Shown: positions 1 to 9,395 of the stretch, piece by piece | How positions within the stretch are numbered: the stretch's first letter is position 1 | Layout of the letters: every line of letters begins with the position of its first letter | Source: Deltaproteobacteria bacterium | Lineage (GTDB): Bacteria > Desulfobacterota > Desulfobulbia > Desulfobulbales > Desulfobulbaceae | Assembly: GCA_024277485.1 (NCBI GenBank) | Contig: JAJRVA010000027.1 | Location: forward strand, 1-9,395 | Direction of reading: 5' to 3' | DNA length: 9,395 nt | The notes under the pieces: generated by a model | Told to the model about the DNA's origin: nothing | Databases searched by the model: none | What the model saw: only the letters and a program-made list of their open reading frames with translations | Program-made: the position numbers and the translations under genes

Positions 1-502
1 GAGGATCTACTGTCCGTTCCGATTCTGTTCCGGAGGGGGAACGGTAGGTGATCTGCAGCTGGGTCTCACCCAGGAGACTGTTCAGCACGTCATCGAAAAT
101 GTGGGTATCAACCGTTTCCGTTTCAATCCATTCACAGTGGATGATGTCATCAACATCACGGTTGTCCGTGTTCATGAGTTCGGTCAGTTTTTTTTGCAGC
201 TTCTGTAATTCAGGCATATCGGTCAGGCCTGTTTCGGCGGCCATTTTCTGCAGGAGGCCGAGCATCAGCATCAGCCGTGGCGTATCTTCAAAGGGCAGGC
301 GGAAACCGTCCTCCGAGTAGTAGTAACCGTTTTTTTTCTGGTCAAAGTCCAGGGGCGCCAGAAGCCGGTCACGCAGGTAGGCGATGTCCCGGTGAGCGGT
401 GGTTGAAGAGACCTCGAATTCCCGGACAAGATCATTGCTGTTTGGGTAGCGGTTGTTCAGGAGGCGGGAGTGAAAATAGTAGATTCGTTCCAGCAGGCTC
501 AT
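1..502 (-). CDS. WYL-domain HTH transcriptional regulator (YafY-like), C-terminus cut off by the window edge
   Basis: Translation from the ATG at 502-500 gives 167 complete residues and stays open to base 1. Residues about 5-50 form a winged-helix HTH of the DeoR/YafY kind: a hydrophobic first helix (LLERIYYFHSRLL), NSNDLVREFEVSSTTAHRDI as the helix-turn-helix, and an LRDRL wing. The KNGYYY motif at 57-62 is typical of the family. From about residue 137 the beginning of a WYL domain is seen (LQITYRSPSG at 149-158), and the rest lies outside the window. WYL domains bind small ligands or nucleic acid and tune DNA binding by the HTH. An in-frame TGA two codons before the ATG fixes the start at or after this point. 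No clear Shine-Dalgarno sequence is seen. It lies 46 nt downstream of vapC on the same strand, so read-through from the vapBC promoter is possible. The target genes are unknown. Confidence 0.85.
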   Translation of the reverse strand, partial: MSLLERIYYFHSRLLNNRYPNSNDLVREFEVSSTTAHRDIAYLRDRLLAPLDFDQKKNGYYYSEDGFRLPFEDTPRLMLMLGLLQKMAAETGLTDMPELQKLQKKLTELMNTDNRDVDDIIHCEWIETETVDTHIFDDVLNSLLGETQLQITYRSPSGTESERTVDP

Positions 503-548
503 GGTTCAGGATTCATGTTTCAGGGTTGATCAGGCTGAAGGCAGCCGG

Positions 549-947
549 TTATTTTGCCAGTTCAAAGAGATGAAACCCGGATGCTTTCCTGTCAAAAGTA
601 AGGACGGTTCCGCACCCTTGCTCCTTGGCGGAGTGGGCAAGCAAAAGGGCTGAAAGATCGTATTTGTTTCCCAGCCCGGAGCGAGTGAGTTGCTGCAGAA
701 CTGCCTGATGTTCAAATTTCAGGATCGGCATGAGAAGCAGCTCGCGAATCGATTCCAATATCTCCATTCTCGGTATCCCGTAGACTGATTCCAGGACCCA
801 TATTAACTCCAAAATGACGAGTAATGGGACGAACAGCTCATTTTTTTCTGATTCAGCCTTCTTGAAAATATTGTACGCTGTTTCTGCCTGCCGCTTGTCA
901 TCACCGACTAAAAAACGAATGAAGATATTTGTATCTATCCCTTTCAT
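549..947 (-). CDS. vapC: VapC-type PIN-domain ribonuclease toxin
   Basis: The 132-residue protein has the size and layout of a VapC toxin, a Mg2+-dependent endoribonuclease of type II toxin-antitoxin systems that usually cuts tRNA or rRNA. All four acidic PIN positions can be placed: D5 in the opening GIDTNIFIRF strand, E47 in VILELIWVLE, D97 in KYDLSALLLA, and D119 in LTFDRKASGF. The enzyme therefore looks intact. Its ATG (947-945) overlaps the TGA of the antitoxin gene in an ATGA, which indicates translational coupling, with toxin made after antitoxin. The RNA target cannot be read from the sequence. No signal peptide or membrane segment is present, so the protein is cytoplasmic. Confidence 0.93.
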   Translation of the reverse strand: MKGIDTNIFIRFLVGDDKRQAETAYNIFKKAESEKNELFVPLLVILELIWVLESVYGIPRMEILESIRELLLMPILKFEHQAVLQQLTRSGLGNKYDLSALLLAHSAKEQGCGTVLTFDRKASGFHLFELAK

Positions 948-1192
948 TTGAACTTATCCTTCATTCGGTTCCTGACGGCATCATCCATAGCGTCAAGAGA
1001 GGCTGCTTTTCTGCCTGGTTTGTGTAATCTGCAAAAAATATCATCAACCTTTTTTGACACAGGCCTGATGATGGCTTCTCTTTTTTCAGTGACAATAATT
1101 TCAATTTTGTCGCCGGTGTGCAGTTTCAACGAATTCCTGATTTTTTTGGGAATAGTTACCTGCCCTTTTGTTGTGAGAGTCGCTATCGCCAT
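944..1192 (-). CDS. vapB: VapB antitoxin, AbrB/MazE-type DNA-binding fold
   Basis: This 82-residue protein opens with TTKGQVTIPKKIRNSLKL followed by GDKIEIIV, the signature of the AbrB/MazE/SpoVT swapped-hairpin DNA-binding domain (residues about 3-46). The charged C-terminal part (RLHKPGRKAASLDAMDDAV and onward) is the expected toxin-wrapping tail. It should neutralise VapC by filling its active-site groove and, with VapC, repress its own promoter. The start is supported by an AAGGAG ribosome binding site at 1204-1199, six bases before the ATG. A -35/-10 promoter lies just upstream with an inverted repeat over the -10, a natural operator. It is the first gene of the operon and overlaps vapC by 4 nt. 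Confidence 0.92.
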   Translation of the reverse strand: MAIATLTTKGQVTIPKKIRNSLKLHTGDKIEIIVTEKREAIIRPVSKKVDDIFCRLHKPGRKAASLDAMDDAVRNRMKDKFK

Positions 1193-1210
1193 GCCATTCT
1201 CCTTACTTCT

Positions 1211-1239
1211 ATTGCAATCTTACTTGAGTGTAAGGCAAT
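1211..1239. promoter_or_regulatory. Inverted repeat over the vapBC -10 box, probable autoregulatory operator
   Basis: CTTAC (1219-1223) and GTAAG (1230-1234) form perfect arms around six bases. Outside them ATTGC (1211-1215) and GCAAT (1235-1239) pair again, offset by three unpaired bases on the left. ATTGCAAT (1211-1218) is also a palindrome in itself. The whole element spans the -10 region and start site. VapBC complexes typically bind such palindromes to repress their own operon. The binding role here is inferred from position. Confidence 0.55.
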
Positions 1240-1255
1240 TGGGTGCTGTTGTCAA
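1227..1255 (-). promoter_or_regulatory. vapBC promoter
   Basis: Reading the minus strand, a perfect -35 box TTGACA (1255-1250) is followed after exactly 17 bases by TACACT (1232-1227), which matches TATAAT at four of six positions. The expected transcript start is near 1220, giving a leader of about 28 nt containing the AAGGAG ribosome binding site. Assignment to vapBC follows from position and strand. No other gene could use it. Confidence 0.75.
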
Positions 1256-1321
1256 GCGTTCAAGGTTCCAGGTTGCCGGGGCTTTGCTCCTGTAGACCAT
1301 GGATGACGGCGTAGGGATTAA

Positions 1322-1388
1322 CGAGTTTGTCAACTTTCATCTCATTTTTTTTGAAAAAAAATGAGGGGGTACTCGCTATATGACAAAC
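1322..1388. repeat. Nested inverted repeat with a T8/A8 core upstream of the 141-residue ORF
   Basis: The core is a perfect 12-bp inverted repeat: CTCA plus eight T (1341-1352), one G, then eight A plus TGAG (1354-1365). Outside it GTTTGTCA (1325-1332) pairs with TGACAAAC (1381-1388), and alternatively CGAGT (1322-1326) pairs with ACTCG (1371-1375). The two outer pairings share bases, so they are mutually exclusive. It could be a terminator-like or attenuator-like hairpin, a regulator site, or the end of a small inactive repeat element. It lies between the vapBC promoter, which points away from it, and the ribosome binding site at 1424. A TATATG at 1377-1382 could be a weak -10, but no well-spaced -35 is seen. 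Confidence 0.6.
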
Positions 1389-1435
1389 CACCCCTGTTAC
1401 AGTCAAGTAAAACAATCAGAATTAAGGAGGTTGGG

Positions 1436-1861
1436 ATGCGCTACAAAATGATTTTAGGTCAGACACTTTTTTCATTTTTCAAAAAGGAAAGACAGGGCCT
1501 GCGGATCAGGGAGGTACGGTTCATGAACAGGGATGTGGACGGTGCGGTGAACGGGACGACCCGTCTGCTGTATGATGAAGAGTCCGGCACAGTGCAGCGC
1601 TACGTCAACGGCTCGGCGCCCATTGCCAGCCTGTCCGATGACATGGTCTGTTTCCTGGCCGAGGTGTCCAGGTGTTTCGGCAGGCTCAGCGGCGAGCGGT
1701 CATGGGAGAAGGATGTCTGGCTCTGCGTTGATACCGAGGTCATTCCGGAAAACCGGGCCGCAGATCCCGCGCCTGAGGGCGACGATGACAGGCCGGAACA
1801 GGATGGATTCCTGCCGATAATTGCCGAACCGGGCATGGGCTATACTCTGGGCCTCCGCTGA
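1436..1861 (+). CDS. Uncharacterised 141-residue protein
   Basis: I do not recognise this protein. The ATG at 1436 is chosen because AAGGAGG (1424-1430) sits five bases before it. The frame is open further up to an ATG at 1361, but that lies inside the inverted repeat and has no ribosome binding site. Residues 1-30 are basic (LFSFFKKERQGLRIREVRF). Residues about 30-100 look like a compact mixed alpha/beta domain (TTRLLYDEESGTVQRYV, MVCFLAEVSRCFGRL, VWLCVDTEVI). Residues about 105-122 are a Pro/Asp-rich linker (AADPAPEGDDDRPEQDG), followed by a short hydrophobic tail. No signal peptide or transmembrane helix is evident. It runs towards the 3' end of the PPK2 gene with 31 nt between the stops. 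It is likely a real gene because of the ribosome binding site and ordinary composition, but its function is unknown. Confidence 0.7.
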   Translation: MRYKMILGQTLFSFFKKERQGLRIREVRFMNRDVDGAVNGTTRLLYDEESGTVQRYVNGSAPIASLSDDMVCFLAEVSRCFGRLSGERSWEKDVWLCVDTEVIPENRAADPAPEGDDDRPEQDGFLPIIAEPGMGYTLGLR

Positions 1862-1892
1862 TCCGGCGGTAGCCGTGGTCGACGGCGGAGCC

Positions 1893-2801
1893 TCAGCCCC
1901 GCAGGCTTTCGGGATCGAAGAGGTGTTTTTCCATATGCTTGATCTCGTCAATCCCGGAGATGACGATTTCCGGGTCGGTCTGCAGCTCTTTTGCCGGCAG
2001 TTTGTTGTTGTAATCAACATTGAGAAGAATATGCTTCATGCAGTTGAGCCGGGCCTTTTTCTTGTTGTCTGAACGGATGATCGTCCAGGGGGCAATGGTC
2101 CGGTTTGACTCGTTGAGCATCTGGAATTTTTTGACGCTGTACTGGTCCCAGTATTTCTGGGCCAGGTTATCCACCGGTGAAAGTTTGTACTGTTTCAGGA
2201 GATCGGTCTTGCGGGCTTCAAAGCGGCGGGACTGCTCCTCCTTGGAAACGGAAAAGTAGAACTTGAACAGCTTGATACCATCCTTGACAAGCAGTTCCTC
2301 AAACAGGGAAACGTCCTTTAAAAAACGCTTGTGCTGCTCATCGGTGCAGAAACCCATGACCGGTTCGACCATGGCCCGGTTGTACCAGGAACGGTCGAAC
2401 AGCACCAGTTCACTGCCGGCGGGCAGGTGAGGGACATAACGCTGGAAATACCACTGGGTTACTTCCGTGTCACTGGGCTTGGCCAGGGCCACGACCCGCA
2501 CGTTCCTGGGATTGAGAAAGGCGGTGATCCGTTTTATTGTTCCTCCCTTGCCGGCGGCATCGCGTCCTTCAAAGATAATCAGGATTCTGTCACCGTTGGC
2601 CTTCATTGATTTTTGCAGTTTCATAAGCTCGATCTGCAGCCTCTTCAGCTCCATCTCGTACTTGATGTGAGATTCCTTGATCCAGATCGCACACCGGCCT
2701 TTTTTTTCTTTCTTGTCCTTGAATTTCAAAATGGTCCCCTCAAGCGGCTTGTAGTCGACAGGACATTGTTCCGGGTGGTGGTTTTTCTTTTTTTTCGTCA
2801 T
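1893..2801 (-). CDS. Polyphosphate kinase 2 family protein, downstream copy
   Basis: This 302-residue protein has the PPK2 P-loop kinase fold. Walker A is FEGRDAAGKGG at residues 77-87 (K85). The Walker B/lid region VLFDRSWYNRAMVEP is at 133-147 (D136, R137, N141, R142). FYFSVSKEEQSRRFEAR (181-197) and the WTIIRSDNKKKARLN segment (239-253) are also family hallmarks. PPK2 enzymes transfer phosphate between inorganic polyphosphate and nucleoside mono- or diphosphates, and many run towards ADP or ATP formation. The first 35 residues are Lys-rich and probably disordered. The gene starts 27 nt after the stop of the other PPK2 gene, with GAGGT (2818-2814) as a modest ribosome binding site, so the pair is surely co-transcribed. 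Nucleotide preference (AMP, ADP or GDP) cannot be decided here. Length and domain layout are normal. Confidence 0.93.
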   Translation of the reverse strand: MTKKKKNHHPEQCPVDYKPLEGTILKFKDKKEKKGRCAIWIKESHIKYEMELKRLQIELMKLQKSMKANGDRILIIFEGRDAAGKGGTIKRITAFLNPRNVRVVALAKPSDTEVTQWYFQRYVPHLPAGSELVLFDRSWYNRAMVEPVMGFCTDEQHKRFLKDVSLFEELLVKDGIKLFKFYFSVSKEEQSRRFEARKTDLLKQYKLSPVDNLAQKYWDQYSVKKFQMLNESNRTIAPWTIIRSDNKKKARLNCMKHILLNVDYNNKLPAKELQTDPEIVISGIDEIKHMEKHLFDPESLRG

Positions 2802-2828
2802 ACGTGTTTTTTTACCTCAGTTGTGAAC

Positions 2829-3812
2829 TTACGAAAGAAATTTGCCGAATTTTTTACGCTGCTTGGCCATGATTTTTATCTCCCTGTCGCCGGGAATAAT
2901 AATGTCCTCTTCCGGTTCAAAATCAAGTGTCCGGCTGCGGGCAGCGTACTTGGAGGTATTTAAAATGAGTTTTATCGTATTCAGGCGGGCCCGGTGCTTG
3001 TCATCGGATTTGACGATATACCATTTGGACTGCTTGGTGTGGGTTTTTTTCAGGAGGCGGAATTTCGCCTCAGTAAACTCGTCCCAGAGTTCCTGGGCCT
3101 GCAGGTCCACCTCGCTCAGTTTCCACTGGCGCAGCGGATCATTTTTTCGGCGCTCGAATCTTTTGGCCTGCTCATCCTTGGTTACGGAAAAGTAGAGTTT
3201 CAGGAGAATGGTTTTGCCGTCGTCGATGAAATTTTTTTCATAGGTGGTGACCTTGTTCATGAACCGCTTGTACTGCGCCTTGGTACAGAATCCCATGACC
3301 GGTTCCACCATGGCCCGGTTGTACCAGGACCGGTCAAAGAGAACGATTTCTCCGGAGTGGGGAAACTGCTCGATATAGCGCTTCATGTGCAGCTCTGTCC
3401 GCTGGATCTGGTTCGGTTTGCCGAGCGCCACGACCCGGTAGTGTTTTTCGTTCATATAGCGGGTCACCCGGCGGATGGTCCCTCCCTTGCCGGAGGCATC
3501 CCGACCGTCAAAAAGGATGATCATTTTTTTGCCGACCCGCTCGAGATGCCTCTGCAGCTTGATCAGTTCCGCCTGGAATGGTTTCAGTTCTTCCGCGTTG
3601 TAGTATTTTTCCAGGGCTGTTTCAAGGATGATATCCTTGTCTTTCTTTTTCAGTACCTTGCGGATTTTTTTCCAGTGTTCGGAAGGATCCTTGATGTTGT
3701 CGAGTTTTTCATCGATCCGGTCAAGCGCTTCACTGATGACCTGGGACATTCGCGGAAGGGGCGGAGATTCCACCTTCAGGGTTTCTTTTTTCTGGGCTGG
3801 TTTCGCAGTCAT
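2829..3812 (-). CDS. Polyphosphate kinase 2 family protein, upstream copy
   Basis: This 327-residue PPK2 paralogue carries Walker A FDGRDASGKGG (residues 101-111, K109) and Walker B/lid VLFDRSWYNRAMVEP (157-171, D160, R161, N165, R166). Its neighbour shares an uninterrupted identical block at 157-177 here and 133-153 there, but differs much more elsewhere, so the duplication is old. It differs in having an extra helical N-terminal region (residues about 20-95, SQVISEALDRIDEKLDNI and onward), Asp instead of Glu at the start of the P-loop, Ser instead of Ala at 107, and an acidic C-terminal tail (DFEPEEDIIIPGD). These differences may mean a different nucleotide preference. It is cytoplasmic. 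There is no good Shine-Dalgarno sequence before the ATG at 3812, but a plausible promoter lies about 65-95 nt upstream. It is first in the PPK2 pair and follows cls on the same strand after 126 nt. Confidence 0.93.
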   Translation of the reverse strand: MTAKPAQKKETLKVESPPLPRMSQVISEALDRIDEKLDNIKDPSEHWKKIRKVLKKKDKDIILETALEKYYNAEELKPFQAELIKLQRHLERVGKKMIILFDGRDASGKGGTIRRVTRYMNEKHYRVVALGKPNQIQRTELHMKRYIEQFPHSGEIVLFDRSWYNRAMVEPVMGFCTKAQYKRFMNKVTTYEKNFIDDGKTILLKLYFSVTKDEQAKRFERRKNDPLRQWKLSEVDLQAQELWDEFTEAKFRLLKKTHTKQSKWYIVKSDDKHRARLNTIKLILNTSKYAARSRTLDFEPEEDIIIPGDREIKIMAKQRKKFGKFLS

Positions 3813-3877
3813 GTCGGGTTTTACTGTTGCTCAGAGATTAAGGTATGTATGTCAGTAATTTTAATCGTCTTATTAAT

Positions 3878-3905
3878 ATTATCATATCATGAGCGGGAAA
3901 GACAA
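3878..3905 (-). promoter_or_regulatory. Probable promoter of the PPK2 pair
   Basis: On the minus strand TTGTCT (3905-3900, four of six to the -35 consensus) is followed after 16 bases by GATAAT (3883-3878, five of six to the -10). The surroundings (3841-3890) are the most A/T-rich intergenic stretch here. The start site would leave a leader of about 60 nt. This would let the kinases be expressed independently of the upstream cardiolipin synthase gene. It is inferred from sequence only. Confidence 0.45.
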
Positions 3906-3938
3906 TTTTCTGTTCTCTTTTTGGTTGAAATATCCGGC

Positions 3939-5399
3939 TTAAAGAAGCGGTCCGACGAGCAGGGCACAGTTTTCTTTCAGGCGGCTGAAAAAGGAACGCT
4001 TGTCAAAATGTTTGTCATCAAGCAGGGTCGAGCTCTGCATATATTTCTGCTGCACTGCCCGCAGCTGACCGGTGAACTCCCTGTTGTACACAAAAAGGGT
4101 AAGCTCGAAGTTAAGCCAGAAGCTCCGCATGTCAAGGTTGACTGAGCCGATCAGACTGAAATCATTGTCTACGGTTATGGTTTTTGAATGCAGAAGACCT
4201 CCCTGGAACGCCATTATTTTAACGCCGCTCCGGGCCAGTTCGCCGTAACGGGCCCGGCTGGCATAATGCACCAGTCTGGAGTCATTTTTTTCCGGCACGA
4301 TAATGATCACGTCAACCCCTCTGCGGGCGGCGGATTTGAGCGCGGCCAGGATGGCATTATCCGGCACGAAATAGGGGGTGGTCAGGATCAGTTCTTTCCG
4401 GGCCGCGTACAGGGTGGTCAGCAGAAGATCATGGATGCCGTTCTCCGCGTAACCAGGGCCGGATGGGATCAGCTGGATGGGGGCGCTGCCGGTTCGCTGG
4501 ATGGGTTTTATTTTTACCGGTTCCTCCAGTTCGTTCAGGTTGATGCCGCTTTCAACGTGCCAGTCAAAGAGAAAGGTGGCGGTCATCTTTTCCACGACCG
4601 GTCCGTGCACCCGTACCATGGTGTCAACCCACTGGCCGACGTCTTCACCCTGTTTGAAGTATTTGGGGTCAACCAGGTTCTGGCTGCCGGTATAGCCGAT
4701 CTCGCCGTCAATAAGGACTATTTTGCGGTGATTCCTCAGGTCGATCCTGACAAAAAGCGCGCGGAAGAACCCGGCTGCCAGGGATTCGGATATCTTTATC
4801 CCTTTCGCTTTCATTTCCAGGGCGGAAGCACTTTTCAGAAACGCGTCACTGCCGATGGAATCAACCAGCACCCTGCATTTTACCCCGCGAGATACGGCCC
4901 GTATCAATGCGGCGGCAACCGCGTCGGCATGTCCTCCCTCGTGCCAGATATAAAACTCAAGAAAACAGCTCTCCCGCGCCTGGTCAATGTCCGCAATAAG
5001 GGTGGTGAAAAAGGTATCGGCATCCTCGATGATTTCCAGCCGGTTCCCGGCTACCGTGGGCAGACCGAAAATGGAAAAGGCCTGGGTGTCAATGGGGCGG
5101 CACTCAGGATTGATGTTGTCCCAGTTGACCTTGTGCCGCTCTTCCAGGTTGGCTGCCCATTTTTTGAAAAAAGAGATGTTTTCCGCAACATGTTCGCTTC
5201 TTTTCTGGCCGATCCTGTTTTCTCCGAAAAGAAGATAGATGACGGCCCCGGCAAAGGGAAGCAGGAGAATAATGACCAGCCAGGCCAGGGTAACGCTGGC
5301 CTCCCTCTTGCGCATGATAATCCGCAGGGAAAGACCGATGCGGATTGCCAGGTCGGCCAGGAAGATGGACGTTGTTATTATCCAGTAAAATTTTTCCAT
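3939..5399 (-). CDS. cls: Cardiolipin synthase (two-HKD phospholipase D family), membrane-bound
   Basis: The 486-residue length and layout fit ClsA-type cardiolipin synthases, which join two phosphatidylglycerol molecules to give cardiolipin and glycerol. Two N-terminal transmembrane helices lie at residues about 5-27 and 36-58, ending in YLLFGENRIG, the usual family junction. The two catalytic HxKx4D motifs are intact: H224/K226/D231 followed by GSQN, and H404/K406/D411 followed by GSVNLD. Other conserved pieces include FLEFYIWHEG (146-155) and TPYFVPD (341-347). The TAA immediately in frame before the ATG fixes the earliest start. The ribosome binding site is weak (a GAG only). It is read divergently from argJ and lies upstream of the PPK2 genes on the same strand. 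No clear terminator follows, so read-through into the kinases is possible. Confidence 0.93.
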   Translation of the reverse strand: MEKFYWIITTSIFLADLAIRIGLSLRIIMRKREASVTLAWLVIILLLPFAGAVIYLLFGENRIGQKRSEHVAENISFFKKWAANLEERHKVNWDNINPECRPIDTQAFSIFGLPTVAGNRLEIIEDADTFFTTLIADIDQARESCFLEFYIWHEGGHADAVAAALIRAVSRGVKCRVLVDSIGSDAFLKSASALEMKAKGIKISESLAAGFFRALFVRIDLRNHRKIVLIDGEIGYTGSQNLVDPKYFKQGEDVGQWVDTMVRVHGPVVEKMTATFLFDWHVESGINLNELEEPVKIKPIQRTGSAPIQLIPSGPGYAENGIHDLLLTTLYAARKELILTTPYFVPDNAILAALKSAARRGVDVIIIVPEKNDSRLVHYASRARYGELARSGVKIMAFQGGLLHSKTITVDNDFSLIGSVNLDMRSFWLNFELTLFVYNREFTGQLRAVQQKYMQSSTLLDDKHFDKRSFFSRLKENCALLVGPLL

Positions 5400-5797
5400 T
5401 TACTCAGGCTATGCGTGTCAGCAGGATACAGACAGGTTGTACTGCCCGCCGGGTGATGGTTTCACACGCTTCTCCTGCTCCGAAGGAGTTGAACTGCCGT
5501 ACATGTGTTCAGCTTGAAGACAGTGTGACAACTTTGGCTGATTCTCCCTGCAGGGTCAAGGAAAATTGTTGGAATATCCGCTGAACTGTGTTTTTATTAC
5601 ATAATGTCTTTTCAGAAACGGTATTTTGGTTCGATCCCTGCGTTATGCCTGAAATTGTATCCTCAGAACTGTATCATCATGACCGGGGCCGAATTTTGCG
5701 TATGGCGTTTCCCGAACTGAAATCCATGCTTGTGAACAGACACGAAATATCACGACCCTGATGTTCCTGCCTTAATAATCTCAACACAGAGTTCTTT
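5400..5797. other. 398-nt intergenic gap between divergent cls and argJ
   Basis: This stretch must hold the promoters of cls (minus) and argJ (plus), but no convincing -35/-10 pair is seen in either direction. TAATAAT at 5773-5779 is too close to the argJ start and has no partner. A 10-bp palindrome, CCCTGCAGGG, lies at 5546-5555. A plus-strand frame is open at 5585-5761. No tRNA, rRNA, CRISPR or insertion sequence end is visible. Confidence 0.6.
5645..5761 (+). CDS. Doubtful small ORF of 38 residues upstream of argJ
   Basis: From the ATG at 5645 the frame reads MPEIVSSELYHHDRGRIL, then an amphipathic stretch containing MAFPELKSMLVNRHEI, ending with TGA at 5759-5761, 36 nt before argJ. The frame is open upstream to 5585, and a GTG at 5588 would give 57 residues. 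No ribosome binding site precedes either start. Its composition is protein-like and it would point into argJ, so it could be a leader peptide, a remnant of a decayed gene, or chance. I do not recognise it. Confidence 0.2.
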   Translation: MPEIVSSELYHHDRGRILRMAFPELKSMLVNRHEISRP

Positions 5798-6982
5798 ATG
5801 AAGGTACAAGGATTTACTGCCGCCGCTGTCCATGCCGGTATACGTTATAAAGACAGACTGGATCTGGGATTAATCTATTCTGAAGTGCCTGCCATCACCG
5901 CCGGAGTCTTTACCGCCAACAGGGTGAAAGCCGCGCCTGTTCTTCTCGATATTGAACGCCTCGGCCAGGGAAAGGCCCAGGCTGTGCTGGTCAACAGCGG
6001 AAACGCCAACGCCTGTACAGGTGAACCGGGCATGGAAACGGCAAGGTCGGCGAGCCTGCTGGCAGCGCAGCAGCTTGGTATTGACGAGCAGATGGTGCTG
6101 GTTGCCTCCACTGGTGTCATAGGGGAGCAGATGGACCTCTCACCCTTTGAGCAGGCTGTCCCTGAACTGGTTCGCGTTCTTTCGCCGGACGGGTTTGATG
6201 ATGTAGCCAGGGCTATCATGACAACTGATACCGTACCGAAAACCTCCACTCGCCATGTTGAAATCGGGGGGACCACGGTCTCCATTCTCGGCATTGCCAA
6301 AGGTGCAGGCATGATCATGCCGGACATGGCCACCATGCTCTGTTTTGTGATCACCGACGCCCAGATTATTTTTCCTGAACTGCAGGAGGTTGTCAGGTCC
6401 GGTGTTGAAAAATCATTTAACCGGATAACGGTGGACGGCGATACCAGCACCAATGATACGGTACTTGTCATGGCAAACGGAACTGCCGGCAATACATGGA
6501 TTGACGAGGACAACCCCGAGGGCAAACAGCTTTTCGAGGGGGCCGTGCTGGAGGTTTTTCAGGACCTTGCCCTGCAGATCGTGGCGGATGGCGAAGGGGC
6601 GACCAAGGTTGTGACTGTCCGGGTGATCGGGGCCAGGGAAGAGGAAGGGGCTATGAGCGGGGCCCACACCATAGCCAACTCAGCTCTGGTGAAGACCGCA
6701 TTTTTCGGCGAAGACGCCAACTGGGGTAGAATTATTGCCGCCCTTGGTCGCTCAGACTGTTTTTTTACTCCGGAAAAGGTCTCTATTTATTTTGATGATG
6801 TCCAGCTGGTGAACAATGGCGTCAGCCTGGGGGGCGAAGCCGAAGAGGCCTGTTCCGCTGTTATGAGGAAGGATCGTTTTACAGTGACGGTTGACCTGCA
6901 GGACGGCCTGGAGCTGGCGGAGGTGTACACCTGCGATCTCTCGGTGGAGTATGTGAAGATAAATGCCGATTACCGCTCATAG
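5798..6982 (+). CDS. argJ: Glutamate N-acetyltransferase / amino-acid N-acetyltransferase (ArgJ)
   Basis: The 394-residue protein aligns end to end with the ArgJ family, which moves the acetyl group from N-acetylornithine to glutamate (cyclic arginine pathway). Many members also make N-acetylglutamate from acetyl-CoA. The self-cleavage site is clear: KGAGMIMPDMATM at residues 168-180, with cleavage expected between A178 and T179, leaving T179 as the nucleophile and giving alpha and beta chains. STGVIGE (104-110), NSGNANAC (66-73), DGDTSTND (213-220), GEGATK (265-270), GEDANWGRI (304-312) and the C-terminal YVKINADYRS are typical. Whether it is mono- or bifunctional cannot be told from sequence alone. 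The ribosome binding site is weak. The stop is 11 nt before the CHAD gene, so the two are probably co-transcribed. No other arginine gene is in the window. Confidence 0.96.
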   Translation: MKVQGFTAAAVHAGIRYKDRLDLGLIYSEVPAITAGVFTANRVKAAPVLLDIERLGQGKAQAVLVNSGNANACTGEPGMETARSASLLAAQQLGIDEQMVLVASTGVIGEQMDLSPFEQAVPELVRVLSPDGFDDVARAIMTTDTVPKTSTRHVEIGGTTVSILGIAKGAGMIMPDMATMLCFVITDAQIIFPELQEVVRSGVEKSFNRITVDGDTSTNDTVLVMANGTAGNTWIDEDNPEGKQLFEGAVLEVFQDLALQIVADGEGATKVVTVRVIGAREEEGAMSGAHTIANSALVKTAFFGEDANWGRIIAALGRSDCFFTPEKVSIYFDDVQLVNNGVSLGGEAEEACSAVMRKDRFTVTVDLQDGLELAEVYTCDLSVEYVKINADYRS

Positions 6983-6993
6983 GTGGTGTTCTC

Positions 6994-8544
6994 GTGCTGA
7001 AGGGGAGAAAGAATACAATCTGGGCTCTGCCCGAGTCACTGGACCCTGAGCAGCTGGTTGGTGATTTCAGTAACGTTTTTTCAATTGTGAGCGAAGAGCC
7101 TCTCCCGACGGGTGGAACCTGGTTTGACTCCTTTGACTGGCGCCTGTATCAACGCGGTTTCTGCCTTTTTCATGACAGGAGCGCCTGGTACCTCTTTCGG
7201 CACGGCTCAGAAGAGAGTGTCGCCTCTCTTACCCTGAAATACCAGCCCGGTCCGGTGTTTTCACGGGATTTTCCTCCAGGCCGCATCAGGTCAATTCTTG
7301 AACCGGTTCTTGAGATGCGAAGCCTGCTGCCCCTGGTTACCTGTGATTCCTCGGCATCCTGCCTGCGCGTCCTGAACAGGGATCGGAAAACGGTTGCCCG
7401 GGTGTTTCTGGAGGAGCACCGGTTGCCGGAACATGATGCTGTTGTGCGCATGGTCAGGCTGCAGGGTGTACGGGGGTATGACAAGAAATTCAAGGCAATC
7501 AGCAATTTTTTCTCCAATTACGGGATTCAGGACAGGGTTGACTTTCTCTACCCCTTTGTGAAAGGAGTGGAGTTCAGCGGCCGCAGGCCCCTTGATTACA
7601 GCTCAAAGCTTGACATCAGGCTCAAGCCTGATTTTTCCGCCCGGCAGGCCATGGTCCTGATATACAGGCACCTGCTTGAGGCAATGCAGCAGAACGAGGC
7701 AGGTATCTCAGAAGACCTGGACAGTGAATTCCTGCATGATTTCAGGGTGGCCGTCCGCCGCACGAGATCGGGCCTGGGCCAGGTTGGAAATGTTCTGCCA
7801 CCGGGCATAACGGACCGGACAAAAAAAGATTTTGCCTGGCTGGGAAAGGTTACCGGCCCGACACGGGACCTTGATGTGTATCTTCTCTCTGAGCAGAATT
7901 ACCGAAACCGCCTCCCGGAGAGCCTGCAGGCCGGCCTGGACACCTTTTTTGCGGACATCAGGGCCCGGAGAGAGGTTGAACACCGGCAGCTCGTTCTCCA
8001 CCTGCAATCCGACAGGTATAACCGGATTATCCACAGGTGGCGCCAGTACCTGGAAAGTGATGACATGGGGGAGGCAACAAAAAATTCCGGTCGTCCTGTT
8101 GTTGAGCTGGCCCGGGAGATCATCTTCCGTAAGTATTCCAAGATCATAAAGGACGGCAGAGCCATAACTCCCGCCTCCCCGGCTGAAAACCTGCACCAGC
8201 TGCGGATACAGTGCAAAAAGCTGCGCTACATCCTGGAGTTTTTTTCCTCTTTATTTCCGCGCAAGGATATGAACAGGGTGATCAAGCAGCTGAAACGGCT
8301 GCAGAACAACCTGGGAGATTTCAATGATCTGTCCGTACAGCAGGATATGCTGCATAATTACCGCACCGGCCTGAGGCCGGGCTCAAGAAAAAACCAGGAG
8401 CTTGCCGCATCCCTGGGTGGGCTGTCGACGAACCTCTACCATCATCAGCACAGGGTCCGGGAGGATTTTTCCGCCAGATTCAGTGAGTTCTCCGCCCCTT
8501 TGAACGCAAAACTGTATAAAAGACTTTTCGGCAAAAGGAACTGA
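6994..8544 (+). CDS. CHAD-domain polyphosphate-binding protein with degenerate CYTH-like N-terminus
   Basis: Residues about 215-510 of this 516-residue protein form a CHAD domain, a helical bundle lined with conserved His, Arg and Lys that binds polyphosphate. Its two hallmark repeats are present: LHDFRVAVRRTRS (H248, R251, R255, R256) and LHQLRIQCKKLRYILEFF (H401, R404, K408, K409, R411), followed by LKRLQNNLGDFNDL. Residues about 1-205 resemble a CYTH (triphosphate tunnel) domain: WFDSFDWRLYQRGFCLF (43-59) matches the YFDTPDLRL-type strand, and VRGYDKKF (159-166) is a family feature. The ExExK metal motif expected near residues 5-9 is missing, with RKNTI in its place, so triphosphatase activity is unlikely. 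The start is GTG at 6994, with AGGTGG (6981-6986) as ribosome binding site overlapping the argJ stop. It is cytoplasmic and sits in a row with parA and sixA. Confidence 0.9.
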   Translation: MLKGRKNTIWALPESLDPEQLVGDFSNVFSIVSEEPLPTGGTWFDSFDWRLYQRGFCLFHDRSAWYLFRHGSEESVASLTLKYQPGPVFSRDFPPGRIRSILEPVLEMRSLLPLVTCDSSASCLRVLNRDRKTVARVFLEEHRLPEHDAVVRMVRLQGVRGYDKKFKAISNFFSNYGIQDRVDFLYPFVKGVEFSGRRPLDYSSKLDIRLKPDFSARQAMVLIYRHLLEAMQQNEAGISEDLDSEFLHDFRVAVRRTRSGLGQVGNVLPPGITDRTKKDFAWLGKVTGPTRDLDVYLLSEQNYRNRLPESLQAGLDTFFADIRARREVEHRQLVLHLQSDRYNRIIHRWRQYLESDDMGEATKNSGRPVVELAREIIFRKYSKIIKDGRAITPASPAENLHQLRIQCKKLRYILEFFSSLFPRKDMNRVIKQLKRLQNNLGDFNDLSVQQDMLHNYRTGLRPGSRKNQELAASLGGLSTNLYHHQHRVREDFSARFSEFSAPLNAKLYKRLFGKRN

Positions 8545-8550
8545 TTTAAA

Positions 8551-8588
8551 GGTGGAAGGCTGAAGGTGGGAAGGCTGAAGGATGGGAG
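8551..8588 (+). repeat. Short degenerate tandem repeat in the CHAD-parA gap
   Basis: Two near-identical units, GGTGGAAGGCTGAA (8551-8564) and GGTGGGAAGGCTGAA (8565-8579), are followed by a partial third beginning GGATGGGA (8580-8587). GGGAG-TT-CTCCC at 8584-8595 could fold as a small hairpin just after. Such purine-rich repeats in gaps are probably slippage products. They separate the CHAD and parA genes within what otherwise looks like one operon. Confidence 0.7.
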
Positions 8589-8618
8589 TTCTCCCCGGCA
8601 AACTATTACGGTGGAACA

Positions 8619-9359
8619 ATGAGTGTCATTGCAGTGTATCACATCAAGGGAGGCGTCGGCAAGACGGCAACAGCCGTGAACCTGTCGTACCTGTCAGCAG
8701 CCGGCGGGGATAAAACCCTTCTCTGCGATATGGATCCCCAGGGCTCCACAACGTTTTATTTCCGGATCAGGCCGGCGAGGAAATTCAATACCAGGAAACT
8801 TTTAAAAGGCGGCCGACATGTTGACAGGAGTATACGCGGTACTGACTACCCCGGCCTGGACCTGCTGCCGGCCGATTTTTCATACCGCAACCTTGATATT
8901 GCCCTGGATGACATGAAAAAATCCCGCCAGCGGATCAGTCGTGTTCTCAAGCCTCTGCGCCGGGAGTATGATACTATATTTCTTGATTGCCCACCGAATA
9001 TAACCCTGTTGTCGGAAAACATTTTTTACGCCTCTGATTACATCCTGGTCCCCCTGGTACCCACTACCCTTTCCCACCTTGCCCTGCAGCAGCTGTATCG
9101 CTTCCTGGACGAGATAGGGGAAAAGCGCTCCAAGGTTCTTGTCTTCTTCTCCATGGTGGAAAAAAGAAAAAAAATGCACTGGGAGATGATGAAAAAGCTG
9201 ATAAAAAAGAAAGGTGTCATGCCCGCGCTTGTTCCGTACCTGGCGGACGTGGAAAAAATGGGACTGTATCGCCAGCCGGTGAATGTCGCCTGCCCGCGTT
9301 CAGTGGCGGCAGCAGCATACACGGACCTCTGGAATGAAGTAAGCAGGCGGATTGGTTAA
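8619..9359 (+). CDS. ParA/Soj-type ATPase without a ParB partner
   Basis: The 246-residue protein has the complete deviant Walker signature of the ParA/MinD family. KGGVGKT lies at residues 10-16, with signature lysine K10 and K15. Switch I/Walker A' is CDMDPQGSTT (36-45), and Walker B is TIFLDCPP (119-126, D123). PLVPTTLSHLAL (145-156) is the usual following strand. ParA ATPases dimerise with ATP, bind DNA non-specifically and move cargo over the nucleoid. The segment KRKKMHWEMMKKLIKKKG (182-199) is very basic and may contribute to DNA contact. It has no N-terminal HTH, and no ParB or parS-like site is seen in the window. Its start has a weak GGTGG (8610-8614). It lies 74 nt after the CHAD gene and 1 nt before the sixA start. 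The cargo is therefore probably not a plasmid or the chromosome. Confidence 0.93.
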   Translation: MSVIAVYHIKGGVGKTATAVNLSYLSAAGGDKTLLCDMDPQGSTTFYFRIRPARKFNTRKLLKGGRHVDRSIRGTDYPGLDLLPADFSYRNLDIALDDMKKSRQRISRVLKPLRREYDTIFLDCPPNITLLSENIFYASDYILVPLVPTTLSHLALQQLYRFLDEIGEKRSKVLVFFSMVEKRKKMHWEMMKKLIKKKGVMPALVPYLADVEKMGLYRQPVNVACPRSVAAAAYTDLWNEVSRRIG

Positions 9360-9360
9360 A

Positions 9361-9395
9361 GTGAAACAACTTCTTTTGTGCCGGCACGCCAAATC
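9361..9395 (+). CDS. sixA: SixA-type phosphohistidine phosphatase, only the first 12 codons present
   Basis: A GTG one base after the parA stop begins VKQLLLCRHAKS, which runs into the window edge. The hydrophobic strand followed by RHAKS is the histidine phosphatase signature in its SixA form (RHG in most other members), with H9 the expected phospho-acceptor. SixA proteins remove phosphate from phosphohistidine, for example in phosphotransfer proteins. AGGCGG (9345-9350) inside the end of parA is a fair ribosome binding site. Tight spacing means translation is coupled to parA. Only the N-terminus is available, so the assignment rests on this motif and its position beside a CHAD gene. Confidence 0.7.
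   Translation, partial: MKQLLLCRHAK

Follow-up and report, generated by a model that had tools for sequence, protein, structure and literature searches.

CHAD and ParA form a conserved gene pair in Desulfobacterota, Calditrichota and Paracoccus plasmids: a candidate system for positioning polyphosphate granules

The CHAD-ParA locus

We analyzed a 9,395-nt stretch of DNA, hereafter the window (Deltaproteobacteria bacterium, family Desulfobulbaceae; assembly GCA_024277485.1, contig JAJRVA010000027.1, positions 1 to 9,395), in which a gene encoding a CHAD protein is followed by a gene encoding a ParA-family ATPase. An earlier note on this DNA had proposed that the two proteins position polyphosphate (polyP) granules, with the CHAD protein in the place of ParB and SixA adding a phosphorylation input. 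The genes and features that bear on this proposal are the following.

6994..8544, plus strand: CHAD protein, 516 aa, GTG start (Pfam CHAD PF05235, E = 1e-61)
7012-7608, plus strand: degenerate triphosphate-tunnel (CYTH) fold, residues 7-205 of the CHAD protein
7609-8529, plus strand: CHAD domain, residues 206-512
8619..9359, plus strand: ParA-family ATPase, 246 aa (Pfam AAA_31, E = 1.8e-38)
8646-8666: deviant Walker A motif of ParA, KGGVGKT
9361..9395, plus strand: start of a gene for a SixA-like histidine phosphatase, GTG start, cut by the end of the window; accessory, not core
5798..6982, plus strand: argJ (ArgJ, E = 1.3e-146), first gene of the run
1893..2801, minus strand: polyphosphate kinase 2 (PPK2), above the TIGR03707 cut-off
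2829..3812, minus strand: second PPK2, slightly below the TIGR03707 cut-off (297.0 vs 301.8 bits)

Spacers of 11, 74 and 1 nt separate the genes of the run argJ-CHAD-ParA-SixA, which lies entirely on the plus strand; the PPK2 pair is on the opposite strand. The open reading frame (ORF) coordinates agree with the earlier description of co-directional CHAD, ParA and SixA genes separated by 74 and 1 nt; the arrangement described for these three stands, except that the account left out argJ, which lies 11 nt upstream in the same run. Both PPK2 genes invoked there as neighbors are real (Pfam E = 8.9e-93 and 1.5e-76), and the reported lack of ParB at the locus was borne out, none being found among the nine window proteins scanned by profile. 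A parS-like site at 9353-9368, the ParA/SixA junction, matches 13 of the 16 positions of the parS consensus; at least one such match occurred in 9 of 200 shuffles. The frame opened by the GTG at 9361 reads VKQLLLCRHAKS over the 35 bases (11 codons) that fall within the window. Of the relatives found, the nearest (locus L001) comes from an uncultured Desulfobulbaceae metagenome-assembled genome (MAG), with 89% identity in ParA and 71% in CHAD.

Linkage of CHAD and ParA across lineages

A first-round query with ParA retrieved 35 relatives in genome contigs. CHAD was encoded upstream in 27 of these loci, at a gap of at most 187 nt, and the other eight had an ArgJ-ParA arrangement with no CHAD between. 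Two of the 35 loci came from Calditrichia, another phylum, and had different neighbors. Locus L018 has the order NUDIX-CHAD-ParA, and locus L025 the order PPK2-CHAD-ParA-PPK1.

The follow-up surveys started from CHAD, so that the presence of ParA was not required. Among 40 genomes of the phylum of L025, taken to be Calditrichota, 17 encoded CHAD, and ParA adjoined it in all 17 (gap at most 297 nt), with an overlap of exactly 4 nt between the two genes in eight. PPK1 or PPK2/PAP lies beside the pair in 12 of these 17 loci, NUDIX in two and a ROK kinase in three. The ParA score followed the same division: at least 247 bits in all 17 CHAD-containing genomes, and at most 108 bits in 22 of the 23 CHAD-less ones. 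The remaining CHAD-less genome (G065) has one ParA at 162 bits (L133), a gene cut by the contig start, so that the CHAD side is missing; PPK1 comes next. An apparent 4-nt overlap between ParA and PPK1 at L133 was discarded because the conserved PPK1 start lies about 140 nt further on.

In a sample of 198 genomes of the phylum of L001, taken to be Desulfobacterota, we found 19 CHAD genes, nine of them long (open frames above 500 aa) and ten short. ParA lies beside eight of the nine long genes and, within about 1.5 kb, beside none of the ten short ones; it thus tracks the long architecture rather than CHAD in general. Conversely, ParA at 200 bits or more was present in nine of these genomes, namely, the eight with a CHAD-ParA pair and one without CHAD (G108), and one genome with a long CHAD (G086) had no ParA of this kind at that score.

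The largest sample comprised 257 genomes of the order to which L001 belongs, taken to be Desulfobulbales and the likely order of the window. The long CHAD gene and this ParA were both present in 127 genomes, CHAD only in 8, ParA only in 12 and neither in 110, counts that are not adjusted for shared ancestry; the Fisher P value of 6e-48 ignores ancestry and is not relied on. ParA was encoded downstream, on the same strand and within 500 nt, for 125 of 143 CHAD matches, some of which are fragments; of the 18 matches lacking such a ParA, at least 3 (G318, G459 and G406) are no more than 350 nt away from the end of a contig. In seven genomes, by inference those of cable bacteria, the CHAD protein shares 73-85% identity with its counterpart in Candidatus Electrothrix laxa; all seven carry the pair.

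The pair also occurs on Paracoccus plasmids, where ParA adjoins CHAD in all six records with a long CHAD. In the three loci that were opened, the order is small protein-CHAD-ParA-CYTH-NUDIX, and in P. marcusii the pair lies about 1.3 kb from pstA-pstB-phoU-phoB. The small protein (62-67 aa; L057 4299-4487, L063 4288-4476, L071 4273-4476) overlaps the CHAD start, has a basic N-terminus and looks by eye like a ribbon-helix-helix protein; its three copies had no NCBIfam match, and the one copy scanned against Pfam had none there.

A Desulfuromonadales query gave 22 contigs of identical size among the best 120 ParA and the best 120 CHAD matches, compared with zero or one in a control in which the sizes were shifted. 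This suggests that ParA and CHAD are on the same contig in these cases and is not evidence of adjacency. Among the matches listed, Malonomonas rubra and Pelobacter seleniigenes appear for both proteins, and Nitrosomonas, Granulosicoccus and Mariprofundus appear for ParA. No ParA-CHAD fusion was found among the best 120 of 4746 and the best 120 of 331 CHAD matches, and the CHAD proteins among these carry PF05235 only. ParA was likewise not found beside the short CHADs of Photobacterium (L069, L070) or the CHAD of a Thiodictyon plasmid (L068).

Linkage beyond close relatives had been set beforehand as a check on the proposal, and the pair was found in Desulfobacterota, Calditrichota and Paracoccus, an outcome that did not refute it. 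Judged from sequence comparison, CHAD and ParA are a conserved, co-inherited two-gene cassette. We argue for a function of the pair because it recurs in a second phylum and on plasmids of Paracoccus.

The CHAD protein

The AlphaFold model of the CHAD protein is of high confidence (pLDDT 93.8, with only residues 1-3 below 50). In Foldseek comparisons, residues 206-512 matched the CHAD structure of Chlorobium tepidum (CtCHAD, 6qva, crystallized with polyP; TMt 0.94, 37% identity), and residues 7-205 matched thiamine triphosphatase and other triphosphate tunnel (TTM) folds. CtCHAD is the closest solved structure and has the same polyP-binding residues; it differs in having been solved as the CHAD part alone. 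The Chlorobium protein contacts polyP through H253, R256, R260, R296, R418 and Y419 (PMC6537752). The equivalent residues H248, R251, R255, R291 and Y412 are present in all 43 CHAD proteins compared, and R411 in 42 of them. The earlier statement that CHAD binds polyphosphate is thus supported by fold and by contact-residue conservation, and the window protein is predicted to do so.

Triphosphate hydrolases of the CYTH/TTM type carry an ExExK motif on the first strand. This motif is absent from the first 60 residues of 41 of the 43 proteins, and the two pattern matches look like chance. With the motif missing and the fold kept, the N-terminal domain is degenerate and would be free for another role.

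The ParA ATPase

The lysines and aspartates expected of a working ParA, namely, K10, K15, D37, D39 and D123, which cover the signature lysine, the Walker lysine, the catalytic aspartate and Walker B, are present in 26 of 26 CHAD-linked ParAs. Locus L053 was left out of the ParA alignment, and three plasmid rows were left out of the structure alignment. By profile, the closest solved relatives are ParA/Soj proteins (ParA 8ray, 136.6 bits; Soj 6iub, 110 bits), with McdA 6noo at 62.8 bits. In Bacillus subtilis Soj, the conserved DNA-binding arginines are R189 and R218. The position aligned with R189 is an arginine in 24 of the 26 CHAD-linked ParAs, and the adjacent K184 is present in all 26 (R183/K184 pair).

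In a quick tree, the 32 sequences of this ParA group separate from 12 ordinary Calditrichota ParAs with a support of 100. All CHAD-linked ParAs except L078 group together (support 89). This group also includes L030 and L033, which have no CHAD and in which it was probably lost; at the base, L078 and the CHAD-less plasmid ParAs branch in no resolved order.

The relation to ParB was tested with PF02195 in 23 pair-bearing genomes (17 Calditrichota, G009 and five cable-bacteria-like genomes). Every genome gave a match, located in each case either on a separate contig or no less than about 200 kb away from the CHAD-ParA pair. The neighbor of ParB in 16 of the 17 Calditrichota genomes is another ParA, which shares about 30% identity with that of the pair; the match in G068 is weak only. 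The ParA of the pair is thus an extra, specialized copy and not the chromosome's own. Its description as an orphan ParA is therefore upheld, ParB adjoining it in none of the 23 genomes. Ordinary ParABS partition was rejected as an explanation of the locus, ParB being elsewhere in all 23 genomes and not found among the nine window proteins scanned.

Associated genes and wider ParA relatives

In L001, the counterpart of the truncated SixA-like gene encodes a 169-aa histidine phosphatase (Pfam His_Phos_1) that resembles SixA but falls below the NCBIfam TIGR00249 cut-off (42.3 vs 74.5 bits). A SixA-like gene was found in 18 of the 27 first-round loci with CHAD and in one of the eight without, as well as beside 5 of the 10 short CHADs that lack ParA; within flanks of about 1.5 kb it occurred in only 2 of the 17 Calditrichota loci. 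SixA follows CHAD, not ParA, and is not core. Its distribution led us to reject SixA as a core input and does not support the phosphorylation input proposed for it in the earlier note.

Among the other neighbors, argJ is syntenic in many Desulfobulbaceae-type relatives and was not found at the 17 Calditrichota loci (flanks of about 1.5 kb) or at the three Paracoccus loci opened. A PPK2-family gene is present at 14 of the 35 relative loci. In some relatives, a gene that by eye resembles a metallophosphoesterase lies between PPK2 and cardiolipin synthase (for example, L001 2699-3427), and the window does not have it. A hypothetical protein (1361-1861, plus strand) adjoins the PPK2 genes in the window; ORFs that look similar by eye are found at the corresponding position in L001 (131-592) and L003 (1232-1669). 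Further upstream, the window encodes a PIN-domain toxin and a MazE/AbrB-type antitoxin (549-1192, minus strand) beside a WYL/HTH regulator (2-502). The ROK kinases beside CHAD-ParA (L045, L055 and L056) were considered as polyP glucokinases and rejected, scoring 41-44 bits against a cut-off of 250 bits.

ParA is also linked to polyP enzymes directly. At L166 (2990-5877) and L167 (994-4023), a gene for a ParA of this same subfamily comes directly after PPK1, with no CHAD; both genomes carry a CHAD-ParA pair as well, and L167 has a NUDIX-like gene upstream. In the CHAD-less genome of L171, ParA is convergent with an exopolyphosphatase-family gene. These loci tie ParA to polyphosphate apart from CHAD.

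More distant relatives have other neighbors. Genes for amphi-Trp domain proteins lie near divergent ParAs of 183-192 bits (L168 440-3765, L169 2710-5109; one protein scanned in each) and are maybe part of another ParA cargo system. At L132 (7572-9007), in a CHAD-less Desulfobacterota genome, a ParA relative of 213 bits comes right after a protein with coiled-coil and PAS regions. On the Marinobacter plasmid pMAQU02 (L059 3905-6747), a ParA relative adjoins pyruvate kinase. The wider ParA family may serve several cargos. As separate observations, an acetoacetyl-CoA reductase annotated for polyhydroxybutyrate (PHB) synthesis is encoded near the ParA relative of pMAQU02, and an ORF that by eye resembles pyruvate kinase lies about 3 kb from a Halomonas ParA relative.

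A candidate system for positioning polyphosphate granules

That the CHAD-ParA cassette is about polyphosphate we consider highly probable. The best single reading of its function, in our estimate evenly balanced between right and wrong and drawn from genes and residues, is that it positions polyP granules. The CHAD domain, by binding polyP, would let the CHAD protein coat the granule, and ATP-bound ParA dimers would bind the nucleoid. On contact with CHAD-coated polyphosphate, ParA would hydrolyze ATP and let go, so that granules would travel over a carpet of ParA and repel one another across it, as carboxysomes do with McdA and McdB. The outcome would be an ATP-driven spacing and sharing-out of polyphosphate granules. 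What the sequences show is that the two genes are linked and occur together, that the residues for polyP binding and the ATPase motifs of ParA are kept, and that ParA is linked to PPK1; conserved linkage between the ATPase and cargo genes is a feature of A/D ATPase positioning systems. The contact between CHAD and ParA, the binding to the nucleoid, the role of granules as cargo and their movement are the steps that we infer.

Several observations weigh against this reading. The known partners of A/D ATPases, of the ParB, McdB and MinE type, use a disordered N-terminus of positive charge to contact the ATPase (PMC10241942), and no basic disordered N-terminus was found in the 43 CHAD proteins: the median is 5 residues before the first strand with a median charge of 0, and only 6 of the 43 have 15 or more. 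The idea of CHAD as a ParB substitute is thus not supported in the form in which it had been put. At the position aligned with Soj R218, 21 of 26 CHAD-linked ParAs have an acidic residue (D or E), in a family in which DNA-binding residues are often poorly conserved (PMC7229837). The two genes are also separable: within the 257 genomes, ParA lacks CHAD in the 12 and CHAD lacks ParA in the 8, two of the latter at contig edges; of the eight ArgJ-ParA genomes, CHAD is elsewhere in two and was not found in six (MAGs, which may be incomplete); and L174, L177 and L180 have argJ-CHAD-SixA without ParA, the CHAD frame being split or short in two of them. PPK1 (PF02503) was found in only 9 of the 34 genomes of the ParA set, so that in many of them any polyP would have to come from PPK2. 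The looser ParA relatives (183-213 bits) and the plasmid relative adjoin other proteins, and thicker cable bacteria vary in granule layout (PMC9159916).

A reading that dispenses with gradients and transport would make ParA an ATP-gated regulator of polyP synthesis or breakdown that binds CHAD or PPK. The ParA genes that follow PPK1 without CHAD (L166, L167) or precede it (L133) speak for such a role, as do the lack of the usual partner tail in CHAD, the acidic residue at one DNA-binding arginine position and operons that otherwise contain enzymes. We nevertheless judge it unlikely, given that the R183/K184 pair is kept at the Soj R189 position and that, in the cases tested, ParA/MinD ATPases with conserved cargo neighbors turned out to be positioning proteins (PMC10241942). 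Alternatively, ParA could be a static tether that joins polyP condensates to the nucleoid and sets granule number and size, like AlgP, with no ATP-driven movement. The nucleoid region is where polyP granules form, and in Pseudomonas a tethering role has been proposed for AlgP (PMC9239181); a granule-bound CHAD protein with tightly bound ParA could act likewise. A pure tether would not need the catalytic ATPase residues kept in 26 of 26 proteins, which makes this alternative rather improbable.

Still another possibility is that granules are signal and not cargo, with CHAD as the link by which ParA would inform the cell cycle or chromosome segregation of the state of polyP. Pseudomonas without polyP is slow to exit the cell cycle, and polyP affects the Caulobacter cell cycle (PMC9239181); in the genomes tested, ParB adjoins a different ParA, and we regard a sensor of this kind as highly unlikely. 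Chance hitch-hiking of a housekeeping or plasmid-type ParA within a conserved gene string is scarcely credible: although the argJ-CHAD-ParA-SixA order is partly vertical inheritance within one order, the pair persists among different neighbors both in a second phylum and on plasmids of Paracoccus, the genes co-occur genome-wide, the ParA is not the ParB-linked one, and the distances of CHAD vary together with those of ParA (Mantel r = 0.81, 40 pairs), though joint inheritance alone would give the same.

For granule positioning, the lack of the usual disordered basic tail implies that the contact between CHAD and ParA would run through the folded domain of degenerate TTM type, through the surface of CHAD, through polyP or through a further protein. 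In its most specific form, the proposal is that a specialized ParA subfamily and a CHAD granule coat, or sometimes PPK1 directly, make up a dedicated polyP-granule partition system in several phyla, triggered by the folded, dead TTM domain or by polyP and not by a tail. We put this version forward tentatively, as plausible but somewhat short of an even chance.

Comparison with known systems and implications

The nearest parallels are McdA/McdB of carboxysomes and ParC/PpfA of chemoreceptors, in which a ParA-family ATPase without ParB is encoded beside a protein that binds the body to be positioned. Compared with McdA/McdB, the cargo here would be polyphosphate, the CHAD partner has no disordered basic N-terminus, and the ParA of the pair is by profile nearer to ParA/Soj than to McdA (136.6 and 110 vs 62.8 bits). 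AlgP, PhaF and PhaM similarly tie polyP or PHB granules to the nucleoid (PMC9239181, PMC13052382); they differ in being, as these texts describe them, single DNA-binding granule proteins without a ParA ATPase and without CHAD.

The order folD-ppk-parA-CHAD has already been printed for Acidithiobacillus (PMC10892726, PMC6416229), where the same genes are associated with PPK1. In the available text of these papers, ParA is termed a plasmid or chromosome partition protein, and the topics are copper and cyclic AMP, not granule positioning. According to PMC6416229, the CYTH active-site residues are kept in Acidithiobacillus, whereas the domain is degenerate in the present set. Our literature search, with most subscription papers outside it, found a pairing of ParA, CHAD domain and polyP in Acidithiobacillus only. 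For polyphosphate granules and ParA-like segregation, a search of the same reach found commentary whose available text does not contain this idea. Within the reach of these searches, what is new is the interpretation and its breadth.

In the available text of a 2025 review of organelle positioning (PMC13052382), AlgP is the sole table entry for polyP granules, the ATP dependence of their positioning is marked unknown, and energy use is yet to be seen. The cassette, often accompanied by PPK, offers deletion targets for addressing this question of energy use. Cultured carriers include Paracoccus marcusii and P. aestuarii, on plasmids; in Malonomonas rubra and Pelobacter seleniigenes, the contigs that encode the two proteins are equal in size. 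The cassette would also test whether a ParA partner works without the usual activating tail. Thin cable bacteria mostly have two similar polyP granules, one per pole, in a pattern shared by neighboring cells (PMC9159916). If the proposal is true, a dedicated granule partition system would explain this one-granule-per-pole pattern.

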